Assembly: GCA_017619275.1 (NCBI GenBank)
Contig: JAFZSR010000008.1
Location: 1 to 60,055, forward strand
Reading direction: 5' to 3'
DNA length: 60,055 bases
DNA from: Prevotella sp.
Lineage (GTDB): Bacteria > Bacteroidota > Bacteroidia > Bacteroidales > Bacteroidaceae
A program made the position numbers and the translations under genes. The notes under the pieces are model-generated. The model searched no databases, was not told the origin of the DNA, and was given only the letters and a program-made list of their open reading frames with translations. Each line of letters opens with the position of its first letter. The first letter of the stretch is position 1. Below are positions 320 through 60,055 of this stretch, piece after piece.

Positions 320-356
320 AAAATGAATTAGAGAAATTCGTTTCTAAAAAACAAAT

Positions 357-420
357 GTCTTGATGTCTTGTTGTCTTAACGTCTTGTTGTCTTGATGTCT
401 TGATGTCTTAACGTCTTGAC
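357..420. repeat. octamer tandem array, eight GTCTTNNN units
   Basis: Eight consecutive 8-bp units with no spacing error: GTCTTGAT, GTCTTGTT, GTCTTAAC, GTCTTGTT, GTCTTGAT, GTCTTGAT, GTCTTAAC, GTCTTGAC. The array starts 8 bp beyond the stop codon of the leftward gene at 429. Read in that gene's direction it is the AAGACATC/AAGACAAC motif that also surrounds the GxxExxY gene at 57.5-58.4 kb. Confidence 0.9.
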
Positions 421-428
421 GTCTGACA

Positions 429-2657
429 TTACTTCACCACGACCTTACGGCCATTGACCACGACGATGCCCTTCTGCGGAGCGTTGATGCGCTGGCCCTG
501 CAGGTTGAACATTGAACGCTGGGCGTTGAACGTTGAACGCTGGGCGTCGCTGATGCCGACGGTGGTTTCCTTCTCCTCGATGGCGAGGTTGCGGAACATC
601 ACGGCGCCGTTGGTGTAGCGCTTGATCAGGATGCGCAGACGGACGGTCTGTCCGGCATACTCGGTGAAGTCGATGCTGTAGGGCTCGAACACGCCGTTGA
701 CCCAGTAGTTGCCGGCCTCCAGCTCTGCGTCGGGGTCGGCCTCCACGGCGGGCATGTTGTCCTTGTTGAGGGTGAGGATGTTGGTGTACTCCTCGCCGTC
801 GGTGGTGAGCTGCAGGGCGAACTCCTCGCCGTCGAGCATCTCGTAGGTGGGTGCTGCGAAGGTGCGGAAGGTAAACATGCTGGCGGCGACGTCGACCTTC
901 AGGGTGTTGGCTTCGGCGCCCAGCTCGATGGTGGGCGACTCCATCCAGGTGGTCTTCAGGTCATCGGTGTTAGTGAACGAAATCTGGCTCTTGAAGTAGG
1001 GTATCTCTTCATAGTTGTTGTTGGTCCAGGTGTAGTCTTCGTCCATGGTCCATCCCACGGGTGCGAAGGAGCCGTCCATATCGGGCACGAAGCTCCAGGG
1101 CAGCACGGCGGTGGTCATGACGCTCTGGTCGAGGTAGAGCGATGAGTAGGCGCCATTGCCGTCGGTGCTCCATGCGCGGAAGTAGTAGGCCTTGCCAGGC
1201 TCCAGTCCGGTGACCTCGATGGCGTCGGTCGATTCGCCCACATACACCACTTGGTTCTGTCCGGTGGCGTAGCCCACGATCTCCCAATCCTCTACGATGA
1301 AGTACTCGTAGTCGATGGCGTCGCCCACGGCATAGGTTCCTTCAGGCTGTCCGAACCATCCGTTCTCGAAGGGCTGTCCGTAGGGGTTCGTCTCCACGCG
1401 GTCGCTGATGGCCACGAGGACGGGGCTGCCAGCGGCCTCCACGCTGAGCGTGACGCTGTTCTTGCCCACAGCGGTGATGGCGAGTGCGGCGGGAGCGCCG
1501 GGCTTGGTGACGATGCTGCCCGAGGTGGCCTGTCCGTAGAGCGGACCGGCGGAGCACATGGAGTTGAAGGGAACGAAGATGAGGGTGTAGTTGGTGTTGC
1601 TCTGCAGGTCGTTGGGCGTGCTGAAGCTCACGCTGGCCAGCATACCACCCCCAGCGGCGTCGCTGGCAGCCACCTTAGCCACCACGCGCGAGGTGCCAAT
1701 CATGTCGCCCACGGCATACTTGGTGCGGTCGGTGGGTGCGGCGGTGATGTCGCCATCGGTGTTGGCCAGCACGAGGTAGTGGTCGGCGTCGGTTAGCACA
1801 ATCTTTCCGCTAATCTGGGTGCTGGTGCTGGTGAGGATCACGTTGTTAACGGCTGCTGTGGGCGTGGTGCAAGCCTCGGGAGCCTCGAAGGTGTAGGTGG
1901 TGCCGTCGGCGGGGTACTGCTCTGTGGAGTAGGTGATGCTGGCGTCGGAGGCGCCTACGGTCTGGCCGTCCCAGCTCTGCACCTGGAGGAAGTCGCGTGG
2001 GTCGCCCAGGATGCCGATGCGCATGAAGTGGTAGTTGCCAGTCTCCTGTGGCTGGAATCCGCTCACCTGCATGGCTATGTTGCCCGTGGCCTCATAGAGG
2101 CGGTACTGTATCTGAGCCTTGTTGCCGCACTCGTCGGCATCGGCGCTCCAGGTGGTCTGGAAGCCCAGGTTCTTGTACTGGATGGTGAGCACGCGGCTGC
2201 CGGCCTCGCCCTCGGTCTTGTAGCTAATCTCGGTGTCGTCGTAGCCATAGACGCCCTGTCGCGAGGTGATGCCAAAGGCGTCGTGCAGGCCGCTGTTCTC
2301 ATAGAACGACATGGCGTTCTTGTGCAGGTCGGTGGTGATGACCTGTGTGGGCGAGAGCTGAATCTCGCCGTCGGTGCCGATGAGGAAGTACTTCATCGAT
2401 TGGCCGTTGTAGCCAAAGTCGAAGCCGATGGGGAAGCCGGTAACGTCCTCGGCGGTGTTGAAGTTCATGTTGCCGTCGGCATCGAGCATCAGACCTTTCA
2501 GGTCGGTGCCCACGGTGCCTTGCAGGTCAACCACGGTGGCACCCTCCAGGGCGACGTAGTCGGCGGTGGTGGTGGTCACTTCGTAGGCAATCATCTGTGC
2601 CGATGCGGGCAGGATGCCTAAGAGGGCCGTAGCCAAAAAAGCGGAAATCTTTTTCAT
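429..2657 (-). CDS. exported fibronectin-III-like protein with Prevotella C-terminal tail
   Basis: 742 residues. A signal peptide covers about residues 1-20 (Lys-Lys, hydrophobic core, PASA cleavage region). The body is beta-rich: an N-terminal sandwich, a fibronectin-III-like segment around 390-520 ending in YYFRAWSTDGNG, and a C-terminal jelly-roll-like segment from about 520 (PWSFVPDMDGSF, WTMDEDYTW) resembling cleaved-adhesin domains. The last ~25 residues (GQRI, then VNGRKVVVK) match the short tail on many Prevotella exported proteins. The tail is preceded by two 7-residue repeats encoded by an in-frame heptamer array (504-545). Probably surface-exposed; the ligand is unknown. It is the last of three co-directional exported-protein genes. 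Confidence 0.75.
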   Translation of the reverse strand: MKKISAFLATALLGILPASAQMIAYEVTTTTADYVALEGATVVDLQGTVGTDLKGLMLDADGNMNFNTAEDVTGFPIGFDFGYNGQSMKYFLIGTDGEIQLSPTQVITTDLHKNAMSFYENSGLHDAFGITSRQGVYGYDDTEISYKTEGEAGSRVLTIQYKNLGFQTTWSADADECGNKAQIQYRLYEATGNIAMQVSGFQPQETGNYHFMRIGILGDPRDFLQVQSWDGQTVGASDASITYSTEQYPADGTTYTFEAPEACTTPTAAVNNVILTSTSTQISGKIVLTDADHYLVLANTDGDITAAPTDRTKYAVGDMIGTSRVVAKVAASDAAGGGMLASVSFSTPNDLQSNTNYTLIFVPFNSMCSAGPLYGQATSGSIVTKPGAPAALAITAVGKNSVTLSVEAAGSPVLVAISDRVETNPYGQPFENGWFGQPEGTYAVGDAIDYEYFIVEDWEIVGYATGQNQVVYVGESTDAIEVTGLEPGKAYYFRAWSTDGNGAYSSLYLDQSVMTTAVLPWSFVPDMDGSFAPVGWTMDEDYTWTNNNYEEIPYFKSQISFTNTDDLKTTWMESPTIELGAEANTLKVDVAASMFTFRTFAAPTYEMLDGEEFALQLTTDGEEYTNILTLNKDNMPAVEADPDAELEAGNYWVNGVFEPYSIDFTEYAGQTVRLRILIKRYTNGAVMFRNLAIEEKETTVGISDAQRSTFNAQRSMFNLQGQRINAPQKGIVVVNGRKVVVK
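504..545 (-). repeat. in-frame heptamer array, six 7-bp units
   Basis: On the plus strand the units are GTTGAAC, ATTGAAC, GCTGGGC, GTTGAAC, GTTGAAC, GCTGGGC: 42 nt, hence 14 codons with the frame kept. They encode a doubled seven-residue peptide (AQRSTFN, AQRSMFN) immediately before the C-terminal GQR tail. Equivalent 42-nt arrays occur at 2907-2948 and 4719-4760. Confidence 0.9.
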
Positions 2658-4522: not shown

Positions 4523-4640
4523 ACAACGGATTGCACGGATTTCACGGATTGGCTGCGCGTGGCAATCATCCGTTAAATCCGTTTTAATCCGTTGTTGATG
4601 CAGGCACTCATCCGTTTAATCCGTTTTCATCCGTTGTTGA
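4523..4640. repeat. ATCCGTT repeat cluster with inverted half
   Basis: Copies of ACGGATT on the left (about 4526-4550) face copies of ATCCGTT on the right (about 4568-4592), giving an imperfect hairpin. A further direct set of three copies follows (about 4609-4636). The centre includes GGCTGCGCGT, also present at the edge of the 2717-2760 hairpin, so the two elements tend to travel together. It fills most of the 177-bp spacer between two exported-protein genes. Confidence 0.75.
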
Positions 4641-4646
4641 TATAAC

Positions 4647-7532
4647 CTACTTATGAATGATTTTCTTGTTCTTCTTGATAATAATGGGCGAGCGGCCAGT
4701 AGCGGGACGACCGTCGACGTTGAACGATGGACGTTCAACGTTCAACGTTAAACGTTCAACGTCGCTAATGGCCGATGGAACGGTGTTCTGCAGACTGAAG
4801 AAGACGTCGTGGAGGGCATCGGTGTAGGTGTCCTGCACCATCAGGCGGGTCTTGCCGTCGGCGGTCACCTGATGCAGCATGTAGTAGCCACGGCCGAAGT
4901 CGCCGGTGATGCCGTCGCCGCCAGCATCTTCAAACTCCAGCAGGTAGCAGTCGTCGACGGTGAGCGGCAGGTCGATGACCACCTTCTTGCGCGGCTCGGT
5001 GTAGGGTCCGCCTTGGCACACCACGTCGCCGGCGCTGTTGAGCACGGCCCAGGTGGTCTCCTCGGGCTTCTGGTCGGTCATGATGGTCAGTCGCACGGCG
5101 TTCTGGGCGCGGTGGGCGTTGGCGATGGTCAGGGGGTAGTGCACGCTCTCGTCGGCGGCCACGCCGTTGAGGTCGCTCATCCACACCTCCACCTGGTTGT
5201 TGGCTTCGTCGGTGAGGGTGAAGTCGGTGAAGAGCGGCGTGCGCAGGTTGATGATGTCGAGCGGCTCCAGCTCGCCGCTCCACTCGGTGCGCTGAACGGT
5301 GCCGTTAATGCTCACGTTGATGACGGCCGAGCGCAGCGTCTCGGTGCCCGTGTTGCGCAACCTCAGGTCGGCGGTGAACTGCGGGGTGCAGATGCGCTGC
5401 GGGGTGTTGCTCACCTTCAGAATCTTCATGGCGCGCGGACTGCCCGTGGGCCGCGGGGTGTAGGTGGTGCAGAGGATGCTCTTCGTCTGCATGTCCTGAA
5501 TAAAGGAGACAATACCCAGCTCGTTCTCGTCCTTGAAGCCGCTGATGGGCCAGGTGTAGTCATACTCCAACGGCGTAGCCTGCATGTTGCCGGGCAACAG
5601 CAGACCGTCGGCAGCGGGGAGCAGATGGCGCATGACGTAGTTCCACGAGCGCTCGCCGTTGGGGGCGGGGTCGGTCTGCTCGATGCGCTCCTCCACCACG
5701 GCGGCAAAGAGGCGCAGGTCGTGACCAGGCTGCGGCGTCAGGCGTGCCACCTGCCAGTGCAGATGCAACTGATTGTCGTCATCGATGCTGGCCTGCGTGA
5801 AGAGGTCGGCGGTGGACTCGGCCTGTCCGGCTACGTCGATGTAGGTGCCCAGCTGTGCTTCATAGCCCCAGGCTCCGACATGCTGACCGTCGACGAAGAG
5901 CGCGGGCACACCCGTTATGCCGTAGAAGTTGGCACGCTGCAGCACGTCGGTGGGATTCTGCAAATAGAAGGGGTCGGTGGCCGATGGGAAGTTCCAGTGG
6001 TAGGTGATGGCCACCATATCGCCCATGCGGTTGTAGATGGTTTCGTCGAGGGCAGGCGAGAACTCGGCACAGGGGTCGCAGCTGGTGTTGGTGAACTCCT
6101 CGAAGAGAACCAGGCGGGGACGATCGGGGGCTGGCGTGCCGGTGAGGCTGAAGTTCACGATGTGCGAGGCCCCGTCGTAGTCGCCCTGCGTCAGTCGGGT
6201 CTGCTTGCCAGAGGCATCGAGCTGGAACAGCTGGTAGTAGCCGTTGCCGGCGGCTCCCTTGATGCCGTCGCCACCCGCATCGAGCAGCAGCAGCTGGTAG
6301 CAGTCGTCGTGGCGCAAGTCGAAGTCCTCGGTGATGAACTTGCGGGCCTCGGTATAGGGGCCGCCCTGCCGCACCATGGTGCCCTGCGAGTCGAAGAGCT
6401 GCCAGGTGGTCTCCTCGGGCTTCTTGTCGGTATAGATTTTCATGCGCACGCCGTAGGTGGCTTGCACGGCATTGCTGAATTGGGTGGAGATGCCGTTGCT
6501 GCGAGCCGAAGTGCCGTTGATGGCGCTGAACCACACCTCGGCCACGTTCTGCCCCTCGTTCACCAGCCTGAAGTTGGTGTGGGGACCGAAGGCCATAGTG
6601 TCGCGCTGCAGGTAGCCCAGGTTGCCCTCCCAGGCATACTGCTCCACCGCGCCGTTCACGCTGACGTTGAGCGTGGCGGAGGTGATGGCGTTGGCGCCGT
6701 CGTTGCGTAGGATGACGCGACCGCTGTAGTCGGGACGGCAGATGAGGTCGGGCGTGTCGTAGAGGTTGGCCAGTGCCAGGCGGTTCTCGCCCTCGGCGTT
6801 GGGACCGGCATAGGCCGTGACCAGAATCTCGCGTGTGCTCATATCTTGCAGATAGGCCACCACGCCCAACTGCTGCAGGTCGTCGAAGAAGTCGATGTCC
6901 CACTGGCCCTCCCATTCGTAGGTGGTGCTGGCGGCGAGCGTCGTTGCGGGCTGCCAGCCTTGGGCGGCGGTGAGCATCTTGCGCATGGTGTAGTTCAGCT
7001 CGGTCTCGTCGTTGGGATAGGGCGTGGCTGCTTCGATATGCTCTTCGATGGCTGCCACGAAGAGGCGCAGGTTGCCGTTCTCCACGTCGGCGTGGGGCGT
7101 GAGGCGCGCCGTGGCCGTGAGGTGGTTGCCCTCCAGCTGTTTCGTTATCGTCAGGTCGTAGTCCAAGGGAATCTCCTGACACAGGGAGATGGCGGCGTTC
7201 ATGGCGGCAAACGTGCGCTCGGTCATCTCATGACCATCGACAATGGTGGTGGGCACGCCAGTGACGTTGTAGAAGTCAACCTTCGCCTGGTGCGCCTCCT
7301 GGTCATAGAGGTAGAAGGGGTCGTTGCGGTCGGGGTAGCCCGAATGGTATTTGATGGCGATGCAGTCGCCCAGTCGGTAGTGGATGACTGAATCGAGCAC
7401 TGGCGACCACGAGGCGCAGGGGCCGCAGCCCGTGTTGGTGAACTCCTCTACCAACACCAACCGTTTTTGGGCGTTGACAGATAGGGGCAAAAACGGCAAA
7501 AAAGCTAACAATAATACAAATACTCGTTTCAT
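4647..7532 (-). CDS. exported Omp28-like protein with two thioredoxin-like halves
   Basis: 961 residues with a signal peptide (1-22). Two homologous halves follow. Each begins with a strand, then EEFTNT and a CxxC motif (CGPC at 36-39; CDPC near residue 485), then a 'DPFYL..ptdv..R..FY.ITGVP...VDG' block ending in a cis-Pro-like VP, as in thioredoxin folds. Each half closes with a 'QKPEETTW..ls..G..v.QGGPYTE' beta segment and an 'AGGDGI' turn. This is the Omp28-related layout, duplicated in tandem. A periplasmic or surface disulfide role is inferred from the CxxC motifs only. The tail (IIIKKNKKIIHK) follows an in-frame heptamer array (4719-4760). Confidence 0.75.
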   Translation of the reverse strand: MKRVFVLLLAFLPFLPLSVNAQKRLVLVEEFTNTGCGPCASWSPVLDSVIHYRLGDCIAIKYHSGYPDRNDPFYLYDQEAHQAKVDFYNVTGVPTTIVDGHEMTERTFAAMNAAISLCQEIPLDYDLTITKQLEGNHLTATARLTPHADVENGNLRLFVAAIEEHIEAATPYPNDETELNYTMRKMLTAAQGWQPATTLAASTTYEWEGQWDIDFFDDLQQLGVVAYLQDMSTREILVTAYAGPNAEGENRLALANLYDTPDLICRPDYSGRVILRNDGANAITSATLNVSVNGAVEQYAWEGNLGYLQRDTMAFGPHTNFRLVNEGQNVAEVWFSAINGTSARSNGISTQFSNAVQATYGVRMKIYTDKKPEETTWQLFDSQGTMVRQGGPYTEARKFITEDFDLRHDDCYQLLLLDAGGDGIKGAAGNGYYQLFQLDASGKQTRLTQGDYDGASHIVNFSLTGTPAPDRPRLVLFEEFTNTSCDPCAEFSPALDETIYNRMGDMVAITYHWNFPSATDPFYLQNPTDVLQRANFYGITGVPALFVDGQHVGAWGYEAQLGTYIDVAGQAESTADLFTQASIDDDNQLHLHWQVARLTPQPGHDLRLFAAVVEERIEQTDPAPNGERSWNYVMRHLLPAADGLLLPGNMQATPLEYDYTWPISGFKDENELGIVSFIQDMQTKSILCTTYTPRPTGSPRAMKILKVSNTPQRICTPQFTADLRLRNTGTETLRSAVINVSINGTVQRTEWSGELEPLDIINLRTPLFTDFTLTDEANNQVEVWMSDLNGVAADESVHYPLTIANAHRAQNAVRLTIMTDQKPEETTWAVLNSAGDVVCQGGPYTEPRKKVVIDLPLTVDDCYLLEFEDAGGDGITGDFGRGYYMLHQVTADGKTRLMVQDTYTDALHDVFFSLQNTVPSAISDVERLTLNVERPSFNVDGRPATGRSPIIIKKNKKIIHK
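4719..4760 (-). repeat. in-frame heptamer array, six 7-bp units
   Basis: Plus-strand units: GTTGAAC, GATGGAC, GTTCAAC, GTTCAAC, GTTAAAC, GTTCAAC. Again 42 nt and in frame, encoding DVERLTLNVERPSF before the C-terminal tail of the Omp28-like protein. Confidence 0.9.
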
Positions 7533-12554: not shown

Positions 12555-12622
12555 TTCTGCTATCATTAGTGTCCAGTAAAATGAGCTGAGCCGATTGTAC
12601 CATCTGTATTGGGATAAACGAC

Positions 12623-12754
12623 GCGCAGCCACTCCCCTCCCTTCAAGGGGAGGGGTTAGGGGTGGGGTCTCTAAATACCTGCGAATGAAGAATATACAGA
12701 CCCCACCCCTGCCCTTCCCCGTAAGGGCAGGGTTCAGGAGGGGAGTGGCTGCGC
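12623..12754. repeat. 132-bp inverted element bounded by GCGCAGCCACTCCCC arms
   Basis: The outer arms match the arms of the 2717-2760 hairpin. The inner arms share GGGTGGGGTCT (12660-12670) and AGACCCCACCC (12698-12708). Each half contains its own small hairpin (CCCTTCAAGGGG; CCCTTCCCCGTAAGGG). The clover-like layout resembles a REP/BIME or MITE-type element. It may also terminate the LUD transcript. Confidence 0.8.
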
Positions 12755-12838
12755 TTTGTTTTTGGACTACTTAAACAACAAAAACAACTCGGCTTTCTTG
12801 CGTTCCTGCGGTGACAAGAACATTATCTATATCTAGTG

Positions 12839-54649: not shown

Positions 54650-56533
54650 TCAACGGTGCATCAGTACCAAAAGGACGTTGATGTCGCTGGGACTCACACC
54701 GGGGATGCGACTGGCTTGGGCCAGCGTTTCTGGGTCGATGGCGATGAGTTTCTGTCGGGCTTCGGTCGAGAGCGACAGCAGTTCGTTATAGTTGAAGTGG
54801 CCCTTGATGCGGATGTTCTCCAGGCGGTGCATCTTATCGGCTACGGCACGTTCACGCTCTATGTAGCCTTTGTACTTGATGCGAATCTCAGCAGCCTCGG
54901 CAATCTCCTCTTTCCTGTTGGGCAGACGGTCGAGCATTTCGCGCAGCTGGGGAATGATTTCCGAGAGGTTCTTCAGGTTCAGTTGCGGGCGTGCCACTAG
55001 GTCTTCCAGCTTCACGCCAAATTGCAGTGGGGTGGTGCCCAGACGTTCTAAGGCGTCGTTGACCTCTTTCGGTTTGATGGCGTAGTTTTTGCAGAAGTTG
55101 TTGATGTCTTCAATCTGTGCTTTCTTCTCCATCCACCAGTCGTAGCGCTCGCGCTTGACCAGTCCTAGTTCATAGGCGCGTTCCGTCAGCCGTCGGTCGG
55201 CATCGTCTTGCCTGAGCAGGATGCGGTACTCGGCGCGCGAAGTAAACATCCTGTAGGGTTCGTCAACGCCCTTAGTCACCAGATCATCAATCAGCACGCC
55301 GATGTAGGATTCGTCTCTGTGCATCACAAAGGTCTTGTCGCCATCGCATTTCAAAGCTGCATTCACGCCAGCGGCCAATCCTTGTCCTGCCGCCTCCTCA
55401 TATCCCGTGGTGCCGTTCACCTGTCCTGCCATAAAGAGCCCGTCGATGAGCTTCGATTCCAGTGTATGCTTCAGCTGGGTGGGGTCGAAGAAATCGTATT
55501 CGATGGCATAGCCAGGCCTGTAGACTTTCACATTCTTGAAGGCGGGCATCTTTTTTAGCGCTTCTATCTGCACTTCCATCGGTAGTGACGAGGAGAAGCC
55601 GTTCAAGTACATCTCATTGGTGTTGGTGCCTTCCGGTTCTAAGAAGAGCGGGTGTTGTTCGCGGTCGGGAAAGGTCACCAGCTTGGTTTCTATCGAAGGA
55701 CAGTAGCGTGGACCTATGGATTGAATCTGTCCGTTGTAGAGCGGCGAATCCTCCAATCCACCGCGCAAGATGCGATGCACTTCGGCATTGGTGTTCACCG
55801 TCCAACAGGGCAGTTGGGGGATATGGGAAATATGGGAGAGATAGGAGAAGCGGTAAGGGTGTTCCTCGCCCGGTTGCTCGGCCAGGCAACTGAAGTCAAC
55901 GCTGCGCTTGTCGATGCGCACCGGCGTGCCTGTTTTCATTCTGGCCGAACGTATGCCGTGGCGGGTGATACTCTCGGTGAAATCGGCAACTGCTGGTTCT
56001 GCTATCCTACCGCCAGCCACCATTTTCCGACCTATATGCATCAATCCGTTGAGGAAGGTTCCAGCGGTAACGATCACGCACCGAGCCAAAATATCTGCTC
56101 CCCAAATGGTGCGCACGCCTTTTACCATTTTGGGGTTTCCTTCTTCAATCAGCAGCTCGCAAGCCTGATCTTGCCATACGTCTAAATTTTCGGTTTCATC
56201 GAGTCTTCTTCGCCATTCCCAAATAAATTTTCCTCTGTCGCATTGTGCTCTTGGACTCCAGACGGCCGGTCCTTTTCCAACGTTCAGCATGCGGAACTGA
56301 ATGGCGGTGGCATCCGTAACCAGTCCCATCTGTCCGCCCAGCGCGTCTATCTCTCGCACAATCTGTCCCTTCGCAATACCTCCAACGGCAGGGTTGCACG
56401 ACATCTGTGCAATCTTGTTCATATCCATGGTGACAAGCAGCGTCTTCGCACCCATGTTGGCCGAGGCGCAAGCAGCCTCGCAACCGGCATGACCGCCACC
56501 AATCACCACCACATCGTATTTAAGCGTCAGCAT
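54650..56533 (-). CDS. mnmG: tRNA modification enzyme MnmG (GidA)
   Basis: 627 residues. FAD-binding Rossmann motif VIGGGHAGCEAACASANMG at the N-terminus, then CNPAVGGIAKGQIVREIDALGG, the Cys of GTPVRIDKRSVDFS region, and the C-terminal GidA domain ending RIPGVSPSDINVLLV. It works with MnmE to install cmnm5 on wobble uridine. Promoter at 56551-56558. The gene is often near oriC in bacteria. Confidence 0.95.
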   Translation of the reverse strand: MLTLKYDVVVIGGGHAGCEAACASANMGAKTLLVTMDMNKIAQMSCNPAVGGIAKGQIVREIDALGGQMGLVTDATAIQFRMLNVGKGPAVWSPRAQCDRGKFIWEWRRRLDETENLDVWQDQACELLIEEGNPKMVKGVRTIWGADILARCVIVTAGTFLNGLMHIGRKMVAGGRIAEPAVADFTESITRHGIRSARMKTGTPVRIDKRSVDFSCLAEQPGEEHPYRFSYLSHISHIPQLPCWTVNTNAEVHRILRGGLEDSPLYNGQIQSIGPRYCPSIETKLVTFPDREQHPLFLEPEGTNTNEMYLNGFSSSLPMEVQIEALKKMPAFKNVKVYRPGYAIEYDFFDPTQLKHTLESKLIDGLFMAGQVNGTTGYEEAAGQGLAAGVNAALKCDGDKTFVMHRDESYIGVLIDDLVTKGVDEPYRMFTSRAEYRILLRQDDADRRLTERAYELGLVKRERYDWWMEKKAQIEDINNFCKNYAIKPKEVNDALERLGTTPLQFGVKLEDLVARPQLNLKNLSEIIPQLREMLDRLPNRKEEIAEAAEIRIKYKGYIERERAVADKMHRLENIRIKGHFNYNELLSLSTEARQKLIAIDPETLAQASRIPGVSPSDINVLLVLMHR

Positions 56534-56550
56534 TATAGATTATTTTTGTG

Positions 56551-56558
56551 CAAAGTTA
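56551..56558 (-). promoter_or_regulatory. -7 box for mnmG
   Basis: CAAAGTTA reads TAACTTTG on the minus strand, 18 bp before the start at 56533. It is divergent from the DUF3737 promoter. Confidence 0.7.
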
Positions 56559-56632
56559 CGCTTTTTTTATGACACGCCCTTTTCCGTAATAATAAAAAAC
56601 CTAAAATCCTTCGTTTTTTATTCTTTTCTTCG

Positions 56633-56640
56633 TAACTTTG
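56633..56640 (+). promoter_or_regulatory. -7 box for the DUF3737 gene
   Basis: TAACTTTG, 24 bp before the ATG at 56665. Confidence 0.7.
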
Positions 56641-56664
56641 CAGTTCACATTATTGGATAGTTCT

Positions 56665-57519
56665 ATGCAAATCATTCAAAACCAACACTTCGAAGGGGAG
56701 CGTCCGCTCTTCGAATCACATAACCTTAGACTTGAACACGTTACGATAGGCGACGGCGAGAGTGCCATTAAGGAATGTAGTAATATCGAGGCCGAAGACT
56801 GTTGTTTCTGGGGTAAATATCCCTTTTGGCATGTTCATGGCTTCCGTATCAACCGTTGTCAGTTTGATGCGGGCGCCCGCTCAGCCTTGTGGTATAGTAA
56901 CCATCTGGACATGCGTAACACACGCATCGACGGTCCTAAGATGTTCCGCGAGATGCACGACATTTACCTGGAGAATGTAGTCATCAATGATGCCGATGAG
57001 ACTTTCTGGCGCTGCACGAACATCGAGGCTAAGAACCTCGAACTGCACGATGGAACCTACCCTTTTATGTTCTGCGAAAACGTTAAGATCGACGGACTGA
57101 AGAGCGACTCTAAATACGTCTTCCAGTATTGCAAGAACGTTGAAATCAACAATGCGCATATAGTGACCAAGGACTCGTTTTGGGAGTGTGACGATATCAC
57201 CATCAGCAACAGCATTCTCGACGGCGAGTATCTGGCCTGGCACTCCAAGCACGTGCGACTGGTGAACTGTCACCTGGCGGGCGAACAGCTGCTGTGCTAC
57301 GCCCACCATCTGGAACTGGAGAACTGTTCGTTTGATAAGGCTTGCGACCGCGTCTTCGAGTACAGCGAGGTGGTGGCCGACATCCGTGGACATATCGAGA
57401 ACATCAAGAACCCCACTACTGGCTATATCATCGCCGACAGCATCGGCAGTGTCACCATCGACGAGAATGTGCGTCAGCCAGCCGATTGTGTGATTGACAT
57501 CAAGACACGTAGACATTAA
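56665..57519 (+). CDS. DUF3737-family beta-helix protein
   Basis: 284 residues from MQIIQNQHFEGERPLF. A right-handed beta-helix built of ~20-residue coils with Asn/Cys ladders: ESAIKECSNIEAEDCCFWGK, DADETFWRCTNIEAKNLELH, FQYCKNVEINNAHI, DSFWECDDITISNSILDGEY, LLCYAHHLELENCSFDKAC. No signal peptide, so cytosolic. Function unknown. The C-terminus (DIKTRRH) is encoded by the start of an octamer array, so its end may have been altered by the repeat. Confidence 0.8.
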   Translation: MQIIQNQHFEGERPLFESHNLRLEHVTIGDGESAIKECSNIEAEDCCFWGKYPFWHVHGFRINRCQFDAGARSALWYSNHLDMRNTRIDGPKMFREMHDIYLENVVINDADETFWRCTNIEAKNLELHDGTYPFMFCENVKIDGLKSDSKYVFQYCKNVEINNAHIVTKDSFWECDDITISNSILDGEYLAWHSKHVRLVNCHLAGEQLLCYAHHLELENCSFDKACDRVFEYSEVVADIRGHIENIKNPTTGYIIADSIGSVTIDENVRQPADCVIDIKTRRH

Positions 57520-57558
57520 GACAACAAGACAACAAGACATCAAGACATCAAGACAACC
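57497..57558. repeat. octamer array overlapping the DUF3737 stop and preceding the GxxExxY gene
   Basis: Units of ACATCAAG/ACAACAAG type at 8-bp spacing. The array begins inside the last codons of DUF3737 and ends 17 bp before the GxxExxY ATG, in the same orientation as the left arm at 57990-58167. Confidence 0.88.
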
Positions 57559-57574
57559 TTTTAAACTAAATATT

Positions 57575-57967
57575 ATGGAGATTGAGGAATTAATACAATT
57601 GATTAAGAATTGTGCGAAGGAGGTTCGGGCGTATCTGACGCCAGGATTTGAGGAGAATGTCTATAAGAACGCTTTGTATATCGAGCTGAAAGAACATGGA
57701 CTGGATGTAAAAACAGAAGTTCCTCTCAAGGTGGTCTATAAAGGACGCGAGGTGGGAAGCTATCGTGCCGATATGATTGTAGACGATAAGGTTATCATAG
57801 AATTGAAAGCTATTGCAGCGCTAACCACCATTCATGAAGTCCAATTGGTGAACTACCTCACAGCAACAGGCATTGACGATGGCCTACTTATCAATTTTGG
57901 TGCCGACAAAATCCAAATCCAACGAAAATTTAGATTGTATGAACGTCTAAAACTAAATAAACAATAA
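57575..57967 (+). CDS. GxxExxY protein, PD-(D/E)xK nuclease-like
   Basis: 130 residues from MEIEELIQLI; the frame is open upstream through the repeat but that part (TSRHVDIKTTRQQDIKTS) is repeat translation. The namesake motif is GFEENVY (Gly24, Glu27, Tyr30). PD-ExK-type residues follow: RADMIVDDKVIIELKA with Asp66, Glu76 and Lys78, then HEVQLVNYL, where the Gln fits motif III of the fold. The family is widespread and its biological role is unknown. Nuclease activity is predicted from residues only. It is flanked on both sides by octamer repeats and has no TAnnTTTG box of its own. Confidence 0.82.
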   Translation: MEIEELIQLIKNCAKEVRAYLTPGFEENVYKNALYIELKEHGLDVKTEVPLKVVYKGREVGSYRADMIVDDKVIIELKAIAALTTIHEVQLVNYLTATGIDDGLLINFGADKIQIQRKFRLYERLKLNKQ

Positions 57968-58444
57968 AGTCCTGATAACCATTATACGACATCAAGACGA
58001 GAGACTGTAGGACATCAAGACTACATGACGAGAGACCTTACGACATCAAGACAACATGACGAGAGACCTTACGACATCAAGACAACAAGACAATATGATG
58101 AGAGACAATAAGACATCAAGACAACAAGACAATATGATGAGAGACAATAAGACAACTAGACAACAAGTCAATGTTTATACATCTTGCTGCCCGTCGTTTT
58201 GGTGCCTATCATCATGTTGTCTTGTTGTCTTGATGTCGTTTCTCTTGAAGTCTTGCTGTCTTGATGTCGTTTCTCGTTATCGTGTCGTCTTGTTGTCTTG
58301 ATGTCGTTTCTTGTCATCATGTCGTCTTGTTGTCTTGATGTCGTTTCTTGTCATCTTGAAGTCTTGTTGTCTTGATGTCTTTTTGTCGTACATCGTCTTG
58401 ATGTCTATCGCTTAATTGTCTTGTTATCAAATAAAAATAACCCT
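57968..58444. repeat. large inverted octamer-repeat structure
   Basis: A 430-bp imperfect inverted repeat. The left arm (about 57990-58167) is built of ATCAAGACAACAAGAC words nested in 31- and 39-bp units that start GACGAGAGAC or GATGAGAGAC; 39 is 31 plus one octamer. The right arm (about 58208-58430) carries the reverse complement, GTCTTGTTGTCTTGATGTC, in units of about 37-39 bp. The centre (58168-58207) is unique. A 17-bp exact match joins 58074-58090 and 58218-58234. No real gene lies within; a short open frame is repeat-encoded. Confidence 0.9.
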
Positions 58445-59620
58445 ATGTCGAAGTATAATTTTGATGAGTATATTGAAAGACGCGGCACTGGCTGCGTGAA
58501 GTATGACGAAGCCCCGCACGATGATGTCATAGCGTTGTGGGTGGCTGACATGGATTTTGCTGTGGCCCCTGCCATTCAGGAGGCCGTCAGGAAGCGTGCA
58601 GCGCATCCCATCTATGGTTACACGCATGTCACCGATGCTTATTACGATGCCGTCATACATTGGTTTCAGCGTCGCCACCAGTGGACCATCCATCGCGATG
58701 AGCTGCTCTACACCACGGGCGTAGTTCCTGCTATGTCGGTGGCTATCAAGGCGTTGACGATGCCTGGCGAGAAGGTGCTCATCCTCTCGCCCGACTACAA
58801 CTGCTTCTTCTCCTCCGTCCGCAACAATGGCTGCGAGGTGTTGGAAACCGCGCTCAAGCCCACCCCGCAAGGCTGGGCTGTTGACTGGGCCGACTTTGAG
58901 GCCAAGTGTGCCGACGAGAAGACCACCGTCTTCCTGCTTTGCAATCCCCATAACCCCACGGGACGTGTATGGACCAGCGAGGAGCTGACCCGTATGAACG
59001 ACATCTGCTTGCGTCACGGCGTGAAGGTGGTCTCCGACGAGATCCATTGCGAGCTCATCATGCCCGGCCATCGTTTCCAGCCTTTTGCCGCCGTCAGCGA
59101 GGCTTGCCGCATGAACAGCGTCGTCCTGAACTCGCCCTCGAAATCTTTCAATATCGCCGGTTTGCAGGCGGCAAACATCATCTGTGCGCAGCCCGAATGG
59201 CGCCGACGCGTCGACCGCGCCATCAACATCAACGAGGTGTGCGACCTCAACCCCTTCGGGCCTGTGGCACTCGTCGCCGCCTACAACGAGAGCGAAGACT
59301 GGATTGACGCGCTCAACCAGTATCTCTGGAGCAACTTTCAGGCACTCTGCCAGTTCTTTGCCCAGCATCTGCCCCAACTTGTTGTCACACCTTTGGAAGG
59401 CACCTACCTGGTATGGGTCGATGTGTCCGCCTTGGGCATCCCCGACGACCTGCTCTGCGACCGCCTGCTCCATGAGGCCCATGTTTGGGTGAATCCTGGC
59501 ACCATGTATGGCCCCGAGACAGGCCGCGGCTACATCCGCATCAACATCGCCTGTCCCCGCGCCCGCCTCCTGGAAGGGCTTGAAAGGATGCGGTCGTTCA
59601 TATTGTGTGAGAAGGAGTGA
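58445..59620 (+). CDS. PatB/MalY-type aminotransferase (cystathionine beta-lyase)
   Basis: 391 residues. Fold-type I PLP enzyme: N-terminal RRGTGCVKYDEAP and LWVADMDFAVAPAI mark the MalY/PatB group. The PLP lysine is in NSPSKSFNIAGLQAAN, the Asp/Tyr contacts in LCNPHNPTGRVWT and SDEIHCELIM, and the C-terminal Arg in YIRINIACPR. Expected to cleave cystathionine or similar thioethers to a thiol, pyruvate and ammonia. ATG at 58445 chosen over an upstream one at 58421 inside the repeat-rich spacer. Confidence 0.9.
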   Translation: MSKYNFDEYIERRGTGCVKYDEAPHDDVIALWVADMDFAVAPAIQEAVRKRAAHPIYGYTHVTDAYYDAVIHWFQRRHQWTIHRDELLYTTGVVPAMSVAIKALTMPGEKVLILSPDYNCFFSSVRNNGCEVLETALKPTPQGWAVDWADFEAKCADEKTTVFLLCNPHNPTGRVWTSEELTRMNDICLRHGVKVVSDEIHCELIMPGHRFQPFAAVSEACRMNSVVLNSPSKSFNIAGLQAANIICAQPEWRRRVDRAININEVCDLNPFGPVALVAAYNESEDWIDALNQYLWSNFQALCQFFAQHLPQLVVTPLEGTYLVWVDVSALGIPDDLLCDRLLHEAHVWVNPGTMYGPETGRGYIRINIACPRARLLEGLERMRSFILCEKE

Positions 59621-59671
59621 CCACAACGTAATTTTTTCCACTCTTTCTTCTTTTCTTTCAGAAAAACTGTG

Positions 59672-59679
59672 TATCTTTG
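59672..59679 (+). promoter_or_regulatory. -7 box for the right-edge RNA
   Basis: TATCTTTG; the first hairpin arm begins four bases later, so the RNA would start with structure. Confidence 0.55.
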
Positions 59680-59682
59680 CAG

Positions 59683-60055
59683 GTGCTTATCGCCCGAAGA
59701 GTCGAATTCTGTTTCCAGAGAATAGACTGAGGGCGAGGCACTACATTGCGGAAAAGCGACACTGTACGCTTTGTTTTTGGACATTTGAACTACCACAATC
59801 AAATCTCGATCAAAGACACTAGCAGAGGTGACGCCTACGGATGTGTATATCTATGCGCAGCCGGAGTGTGCCGAGGGTCTTGTGCCCTCACGCACACTTT
59901 TGGGTGCATTGTATATACTCCCGAGGGTATCAAATCTGTTCGTTCTAAAGAGAGGGCTGTGGTAGGCCTAAATGTCGGAACGGGCAGCAGGAGATACCCT
60001 CGTTCTTTCTGCTTTGTGGAAACCTGAAACTTTAGAACTCTCTGACACTTGGGTA
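59683..60055 (+). ncRNA. candidate structured RNA, cut by the window edge
   Basis: Hairpin 1: GTGC (59683-59686) and TCGCCC (59690-59695) pair with GGGCGA (59731-59736) and GCAC (59738-59741); ATTCT and AGAGAAT pair inside. Hairpin 2: GTATAT (59845-59850) pairs with ATATAC (59913-59918), and GTGTGC-GAGGG (59866-59877) with CCCTC-GCACAC (59885-59897). Hairpin 3: CGAGGGTATC (59922-59931) pairs exactly with GATACCCTCG (59993-60002), enclosing CTGTTCGTTC / GAACGGGCAG. It does not show the signatures of RNase P RNA or tmRNA; a 6S-like identity was considered but cannot be confirmed. The 3' end is outside the window. Confidence 0.45.

Follow-up and report, generated by a model that had tools for sequence, protein, structure and literature searches.

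Introduction

The 23S rRNA gene of Coxiella contains an intervening sequence (IVS) of 428 nt that holds an S23 reading frame between terminal inverted repeats and is excised by RNase III; tandem GACAGAT heptamers lie upstream of the reading frame and vary in copy number (PMC4990558). That paper calls the origin of S23/IVS elements unclear. A second related system is formed by the REPIN-RAYT elements, in which each repeat class has one distinctive single-copy gene flanked by the repeats, gene-less inverted pairs lie elsewhere between genes, and repeat and gene change together (PMC3116915). On the protein side, Cas4/RecB-type and Hjc nucleases are among the nearest known systems.

Here, we analyzed a window of 60,055 nucleotides that comprises the entire contig C67 of a Prevotella genome (3.59 Mb, 127 contigs, about 85% complete). 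It contains a small gene of the GxxExxY family amid octamer repeats, and a preliminary description had proposed that gene and repeats belong together. Our text searches of the open journal literature, which did not extend to preprints or the complete TIGRFAM comment, returned no description of an association between GxxExxY genes and repeat arrays. We lean towards the view that gene and arrays form one palindromic selfish cassette built around a Cas4/Hjc-like nuclease.

Results

The GxxExxY locus of the window

The nuclease gene of the window is flanked by ACATCAAG arrays (Table 1). With up to two mismatches allowed, a two-octamer pattern had 31 matches in the window compared with 0.18 expected by chance. 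The bracketing of the gene by octamer arrays, as stated in the preliminary description, is confirmed. The left array does run into the stop codon of the preceding gene as had been claimed: its octamers are listed from 57512 on, and the first of them, GACATTAA, includes the DUF3737 stop codon TAA (57517-57519), while GACATCAA is found in-frame farther upstream at 57496. On the right, the 441-nt stretch 57985-58425 folds at -111.5 kcal/mol as compared with -52.3 ± 3.9 kcal/mol for 100 shuffled versions (z = -15), with the inverted arm pairing with the inner plus-strand arm, in agreement with the two inverted arms described earlier. The higher-order units of 31 and 39 bp, originally ascribed to both arms, apply to one arm only, because TRF returned for the left arm a period of 31 at 57988-58091 and one of 39 at 58042-58172, but for the right arm a main period of 37 with additional rows of 29 and 74. 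When 57480-58444 was folded as RNA (z = -11.4), the 5' array paired with the far 3' array and the gene was placed in the loop. The flanks of the gene gave an inverted-alignment score of 51. No Rfam match at gathering level was obtained for 56500-60055. The distant array of the same octamer reported earlier was found as well.

Table 1. Positions of features in the window
Feature	Position	Strand	Basis or remark
DUF3737 (PF12541) gene, upstream neighbour	56665..57519	+	profile search
5' arm, octamer array GACATCAA/GACAACAA	57496..57559	+	begins within the end of the DUF3737 gene
GxxExxY nuclease gene (PF13366 PDDEXK_3, TIGR04256), 130 aa	57575..57967	+	
Palindrome, inner + arm: octamers in 31/39-bp higher-order units	57985..58172	+	TRF, pattern search, fold
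Inverted arm: octamer reversed; main higher-order period 37 bp	58209..58406	-	TRF, pattern search, fold
PatB-family C-S lyase (TIGR04350) gene, downstream neighbour	58445..59620	+	profile search
Gene-less array of the window octamer	355..424	-	immediately past the stop of the ORF at 429..2657 (-)

A scan of the window for inverted arms within 300 bp with a score of at least 44 returned two palindromes, the one at the nuclease locus being the stronger. The second is G/C-rich and lies at 12616-12761 (CTCCCCTCCC ... GGAGGGGAG). Arrays of an ACGGATT-type unit (AACAACGGATTGCACGGATT ... AATCCGTTTTAATCCGTTGTT) are present between genes for exported proteins at 4526-4641 and 2787-2818; the former resembles a gene-less palindrome by eye and falls under the score cut-off of the scan. 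Among the GxxExxY copies of the host genome, none carried this unit. Heptamer repeats of another kind (GTTGAAC/ACGTTCA) are located within coding 3' ends (504-547, 2906-2944 and 4717-4762); the exported proteins encoded there carry QRSTFNAQRSMFN-/VERLTLNVERPSFN-like peptide repeats close to their C-termini.

The window protein matched PF13366 with E 4.7e-37 (127.4 bits, curated cut-off 22) and TIGR04256 with E 1.2e-39 (135.3 bits, curated cut-off 35). It covers residues 5-117 of 130, and no other Pfam/NCBIfam domain was matched at E ≤ 0.001. Low-scoring Pfam similarities to DUF559, Phage_endo_I and Cas4 (best E 4e-4 to 0.01) were set aside as evidence, and a search of the PDB by sequence yielded no informative hit, T7 endonuclease I appearing at E 1.8. 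The window protein was aligned with 35 relatives (36 rows in total); G24, E27, D66, E76, K78, Q90 and Y94 were invariant and Y30 was conserved in at least 90%. The conserved set reads E27, D66, E76-x-K78 and Q90-xxx-Y94; it contains the PD-ExK-type residues D66, E76 and K78 which, together with the GxxExxY motif, had been recognized before and are now backed by profile matches and alignment. The fold model of the protein had a pLDDT of 93.9. As judged from sequence, the window gene is a predicted PD-(D/E)XK nuclease with intact catalytic residues, here called Cas4/Hjc-like.

Inverted flanks across the genus

Among 60 genomes of the same genus, one per species, the GxxExxY family was detected in 41, a patchy distribution. 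We compiled 94 loci, namely 89 copies outside the host genome (up to 8 kb per side) and the host's own five; nine rows that were short, broken or under cut-off were omitted. For each locus, the 300 bp upstream were locally aligned with the reverse complement of the 300 bp downstream, using a cut-off of 40. Control ORFs from the same stretches were provided by a simple longest-ORF caller rather than a gene finder. In the host genome, the family is represented by five intact genes plus one fragment. By eye, each of the intact genes is enclosed by inverted repeats, which vary among the copies; four of the five genes reached 40 in the flank test and the fifth, L018, scored 28.

Inverted flanks scoring at least 40 were present at 55/94 GxxExxY genes compared with 8/749 other ORFs and 3/170 controls bounded by a gap on either side; in these and the following counts, neither related genomes nor pairs of loci are independent. 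When direct matches were counted as well, the figures were 72/94, 14/749 and 5/170. The 749 controls included three GxxExxY and six S23 relatives; without these, 4/740 had inverted and 10/740 direct matches. Size-matched ORFs from outside the families (80-200 aa) gave 0/224 and 3/224, respectively. Ranked against the flanks of the other 93 loci, the downstream flank of the same gene came first at 46 of the 94 loci, and at 72 the match exceeded the 95% level of mismatched pairs.

Tandem arrays of the kind that the preliminary description placed beside the gene did not hold up as the defining feature. Strict periodicity (≥ 0.9 across two periods of 6-12) occurred at 11/93 GxxExxY loci and in 31/347 other gaps (p 0.25), and long near-perfect arrays were likewise not enriched, with 2.1% of 187 GxxExxY flanks and 7.1% of 338 gaps. 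Degenerate periodicity of 7-10 nt was enriched beside GxxExxY genes (p 1e-16). What stays constant is the inverted pairing of the two flanks rather than long tandem arrays, and as regards the latter the window locus is an expanded case. An RNA duplex energy cut-off (below -25) failed to discriminate (0.979 versus 0.986), although the medians differed (-60.2 versus -46.8). At L117, L111, L120 and L073, GxxExxY genes were observed within long direct repeats. Some of these repeat units hold both array orientations by eye, so gene-less palindromes seem to have been tandemly amplified around the gene.

These counts bear on a rival explanation, namely that replication slippage expands oligomers in Prevotella gene gaps and that a small gene merely sits in one of them. 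Oligomer arrays do occur with no such gene nearby, those of the long near-perfect type are no commoner beside GxxExxY genes than in other gaps, and the 3/224 size-matched ORFs with direct repeats would fit. However, slippage is not expected to give inverted arms across a gene (55/94 versus 0/224) or the genome-matched units described below. The matched controls already disfavour coincidence, and we consider it very improbable.

The repeat unit goes with its gene

The units, mostly 7-10 nt, differ between genes, and resemblance is largely confined to close relatives. The pairing of gene and arrays put forward in the preliminary description is strongly supported, but the octamer as a family-wide partner is ruled out since units are gene-specific. 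The exact 24-nt pattern of the window octamer was found in only two of the 60 genomes, G000 and G041, and these are the genomes in which a GxxExxY gene flanked by this octamer was seen; the proposed link thus withstood the comparison with genomes that lack such a gene. The two octamer-flanked genes, the window gene and L093, are 73% identical and reside at different sites. In G041 the exact octamer matches lie on contigs C15, C41 and C48 and the octamer-flanked gene on C65.

For three further units, expectations were drawn from the flanks before the pattern searches, with no record made beforehand. The heptamer of L019/L081 was found in 2/60 genomes, G000 and G059, and the unit of L100 had 25 matches, all in G051 (1/60), both as expected, since the matching gene had been seen in precisely these genomes. 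The fourth unit, expected in G023, G030 and G041, agreed in part: G023 had 12 matches, all at the gene's own array, G030 had 13, single matches occurred in G003, G014, G038 and G050, and G041 had none. The 61%-complete genome G041 contains degenerate heptamer arrays (L203, L204) and lacks the exact L019/L081 pattern; a cognate gene for these arrays was not found in it.

Beyond their own locus, the arms had 31 matches in 4.0 Mb of stretches from the same genome (7.8 per Mb) compared with 29 in 95.4 Mb from other genomes (0.30 per Mb), lengths being summed over the 94 loci (distinct sequence 1.06 Mb). None of 5000 label permutations reached 31 own-genome matches. Such matches elsewhere in the same genome were obtained for 20/94 loci. 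Inspection confirmed as gene-less six places matching the octamer, in addition to the window's own one. GxxExxY proteins of one genome were at most 69.5% identical (fetched copies, 24 genomes with at least two). With no near-identical copies within a genome, the gene looks single-copy while its unit recurs.

When genes from different genomes without a shared neighbour were paired, unit likeness of at least 30 was seen in 11/18 pairs at 75% protein identity or more, 25/91 at 60-75%, about 2% at 40-60% and 0.3% below 40%. As a control, the reversed orientation produced 5/18 and 10/91 in the two upper classes, a signal that we take to stem from nested palindromes at some loci. Unit and gene fit each other and occur together. 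Two composite gene-less elements were observed, L012 (G000:C75, 1400-1570) and L007 (G000:C28, 1465-1610). In both, one arm consists of L019-unit heptamers and the opposite arm of window-gene octamers, and the arms converge; these elements appear to be common to two GxxExxY systems of the genome.

Arms change in concert and junctions are filled, gene-less or empty

Loci from different species were paired by a shared neighbouring protein (blastp E ≤ 1e-5), yielding 86 pairs in 16 clusters; the junction may differ within a cluster, and pairs inside one cluster are not independent. The two arms of a locus matched each other better than arms combined across the two species in 76/86 pairs and worse in nine (mean 43.2 versus 25.6), and did so in 53/55 pairs with 60-75% protein identity. 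The arms therefore change in concert.

DUF3737 is followed by PatB in 26/30 loci (30 best matches), or 25/29 excluding the window. Only the window has a gene between them, the other 25 being too tightly spaced to accommodate one. In G059, the closest by DUF3737 (85%), the junction is occupied by a short palindrome that lacks a gene and is of the same unit type as in the window, and in G018 and G025 by gene-less palindromes of other units.

The korA-korB junction was surveyed in 30 genomes by best KorB matches, with arms, gene-less forms and the half array judged by eye. A GxxExxY cassette was present in 9/30 and an S23 cassette in 2/30. A gene-less palindrome was seen in three (that of G054 being weak) and a half array in one. 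Ten junctions had a gap of 4-6 bp, four, including that of the host genome, had 34-122 bp without visible arms, and one was left unclassified. One and the same junction hence exists in gene-less, S23-bearing and empty versions. Gaps with a cassette were 424-612 bp where measured, and the gap in the window is about 0.93 kb. At L333 (G019, korA-korB gap of 197 bp) both arms were observed together with a remnant that by eye resembles a decayed GxxExxY start; the family search did not flag it. L333 is likely an internal-deletion derivative. With one genome per species, no movement was observed, and no target-site duplication was established at the compared junctions.

The conserved catalytic residues, and the occupation of the same junction in several species (9/30 korA-korB junctions for GxxExxY), could also indicate that the cassette is kept because the host profits from using nuclease and arrays, with DNA repair, phage defence and chromosome structure as conceivable roles. 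Such domestication sits badly with the patchy distribution (41/60 genomes) and with the observation that the same junctions are elsewhere empty, gene-less or filled with copies that look decayed, and appears improbable to us.

The reading frame is in sense to codirectional neighbours in every counted case, 60/60 in the genus, 55/55 in the overlapping set of named taxa described below and 25/25 for S23. Ordinary ORFs of 100-200 aa between codirectional neighbours were in sense in 66/81; much of the bias is therefore normal operon order. The 5' arm had more A than T in 46/57, 28/32 and 14/17 decided cases, and its G versus C skew had no consistent sign (30:20, 7:23 and 17:0).

Other taxa and S23 genes

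A set of 80 loci from named taxa, mostly Bacteroidales MAGs and overlapping the genus set (at least L220 and L222), provided 78 loci with both flanks. Inverted matches of at least 40 were found in 27, direct matches in 24 and either in 44; other ORFs at these loci gave 2/136 and 5/136 for inverted and direct matches, respectively. Outside Bacteroidota, the inverted layout was clear in a Lentisphaerae MAG (L298, score 55) and an Opitutae MAG (L280, score 51). In Ichthyobacteriaceae (L299) it was visible by eye with a score of only 35, and in L279, L281, L284 and L291, among others, it was absent by score.

Among the eight genus-set control ORFs that reached 40, two were GxxExxY relatives and two were S23/IVP four-helix-bundle genes, a third S23/IVP gene scoring 39. 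With the best S23 gene from each of 30 genomes (L143-L172), inverted flanks of at least 40 were found in 17/30. Two unrelated protein families thus have one cassette layout; the array units of S23 genes look unlike those of GxxExxY genes. No rRNA was found in 20 scanned loci, 16 of them S23. In L130 (G051:C61), the ORF at 893-1772 of the oriented stretch is related to neither GxxExxY nor S23 and was observed with direct arrays on both sides that look like the unit of L100, the GxxExxY gene of G051.

The S23 results raise the alternative that the arms act only as an RNA stem, an RNase III site or shield that shelters an operon ORF as in 23S rRNA intervening sequences, that the role of the nuclease lies elsewhere and that spread occurs by ordinary repeat recombination. 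The shared architecture of unrelated S23 genes and their presence at the korA-korB junction (17/30 and 2/30, see above) speak for such a passenger, as do the invariable sense orientation, arm pairing that is kept while arm sequence changes, and the Coxiella IVS, for which S23 ORF, inverted repeats, heptamers and RNase III excision are all described (PMC4990558). It leaves unexplained, however, why other arrays of a genome carry the unit of its own GxxExxY gene and why the nuclease residues are intact. We therefore regard a purely RNA-level role as unlikely.

Discussion

Taken together, the layout, the gene-matched units, the paired change of the arms and the range of junction states (filled, gene-less and empty) reveal a palindromic cassette. 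Its architecture is that of a nuclease gene, single-copy and in sense to the operon, between inward-running arrays of a gene-specific unit. Under the selfish-cassette explanation, the cassette would be expressed by read-through. Like 23S rRNA intervening sequences, its RNA could fold into a stem whose loop holds the reading frame, which might make the cassette nearly harmless within an operon. The nuclease would recognize its own unit, or a hairpin or cruciform formed by it, and cut there. Repair or replication at the cut may then keep the arms alike and expand the arrays, and may seed gene-less palindromes at other junctions, as RAYTs are thought to spread REPINs. That the nuclease cuts and spreads its own arrays is, in our estimation, somewhat probable.

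The data suggest a nuclease-based family of selfish DNA cassettes rather than one based on a known transposase. Tentatively, and at lower confidence, they might represent a new class of bacterial DNA, selfish or mobile, that could be termed 'repeat-nuclease' cassettes. In these, a minimal Cas4/Hjc-like nuclease would read its private unit of 7-10 nt within arrays that form hairpins, keep the two arms homogeneous and plant palindromes without a gene at operon junctions; GxxExxY and S23/IVS would be two ORF types on one kind of cassette in several phyla. If so, this would account for a class of Prevotella oligomer arrays, provide an alternative to RAYTs for the spread of short palindromes into bacterial gene gaps, and give S23/IVS elements a home, the same architecture being found between protein-coding genes with another ORF inside. 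TIGR04256 is widespread (41/60 genomes here), and if each nuclease reads the unit flanking its gene, the family offers a natural series of nuclease-target pairs whose specificity is directly testable.

The cassettes share with REPIN-RAYT elements all the features listed in the Introduction. Distinctive single copies (maximum within-genome identity 69.5%) and gene-less cognate repeats in the same genome (places inspected for the octamer only) were both found. In contrast to REPINs, the cassette repeat is an array of short oligomers and not one short palindrome, and the gene occupies the interior of the inverted pair, at a junction within an operon. The enzyme also differs: the gene at the window locus encodes the predicted PD-(D/E)XK nuclease and no tyrosine (HUH) transposase.

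With 23S rRNA intervening sequences, the window cassette has in common a small ORF that terminal inverted repeats place in a loop, and short tandem repeats upstream of that ORF. Size is similar too (424-612 bp at korA-korB versus 428 nt), the window's cassette being longer. The inverted repeats of the window pair around the ORF, both by alignment score (51) and in the folds. Unlike in an IVS, other arrays of the cassette's unit are present elsewhere in the genome. The window cassette is located between DUF3737 and PatB and not inside a 23S rRNA gene, and its ORF belongs to PF13366 and is no S23/IVP ORF. Given its enzyme on the one hand and its location and ORF on the other, we assign the window locus to neither system; the S23 genes found elsewhere in the same layout tie it to the 23S intervening sequences.
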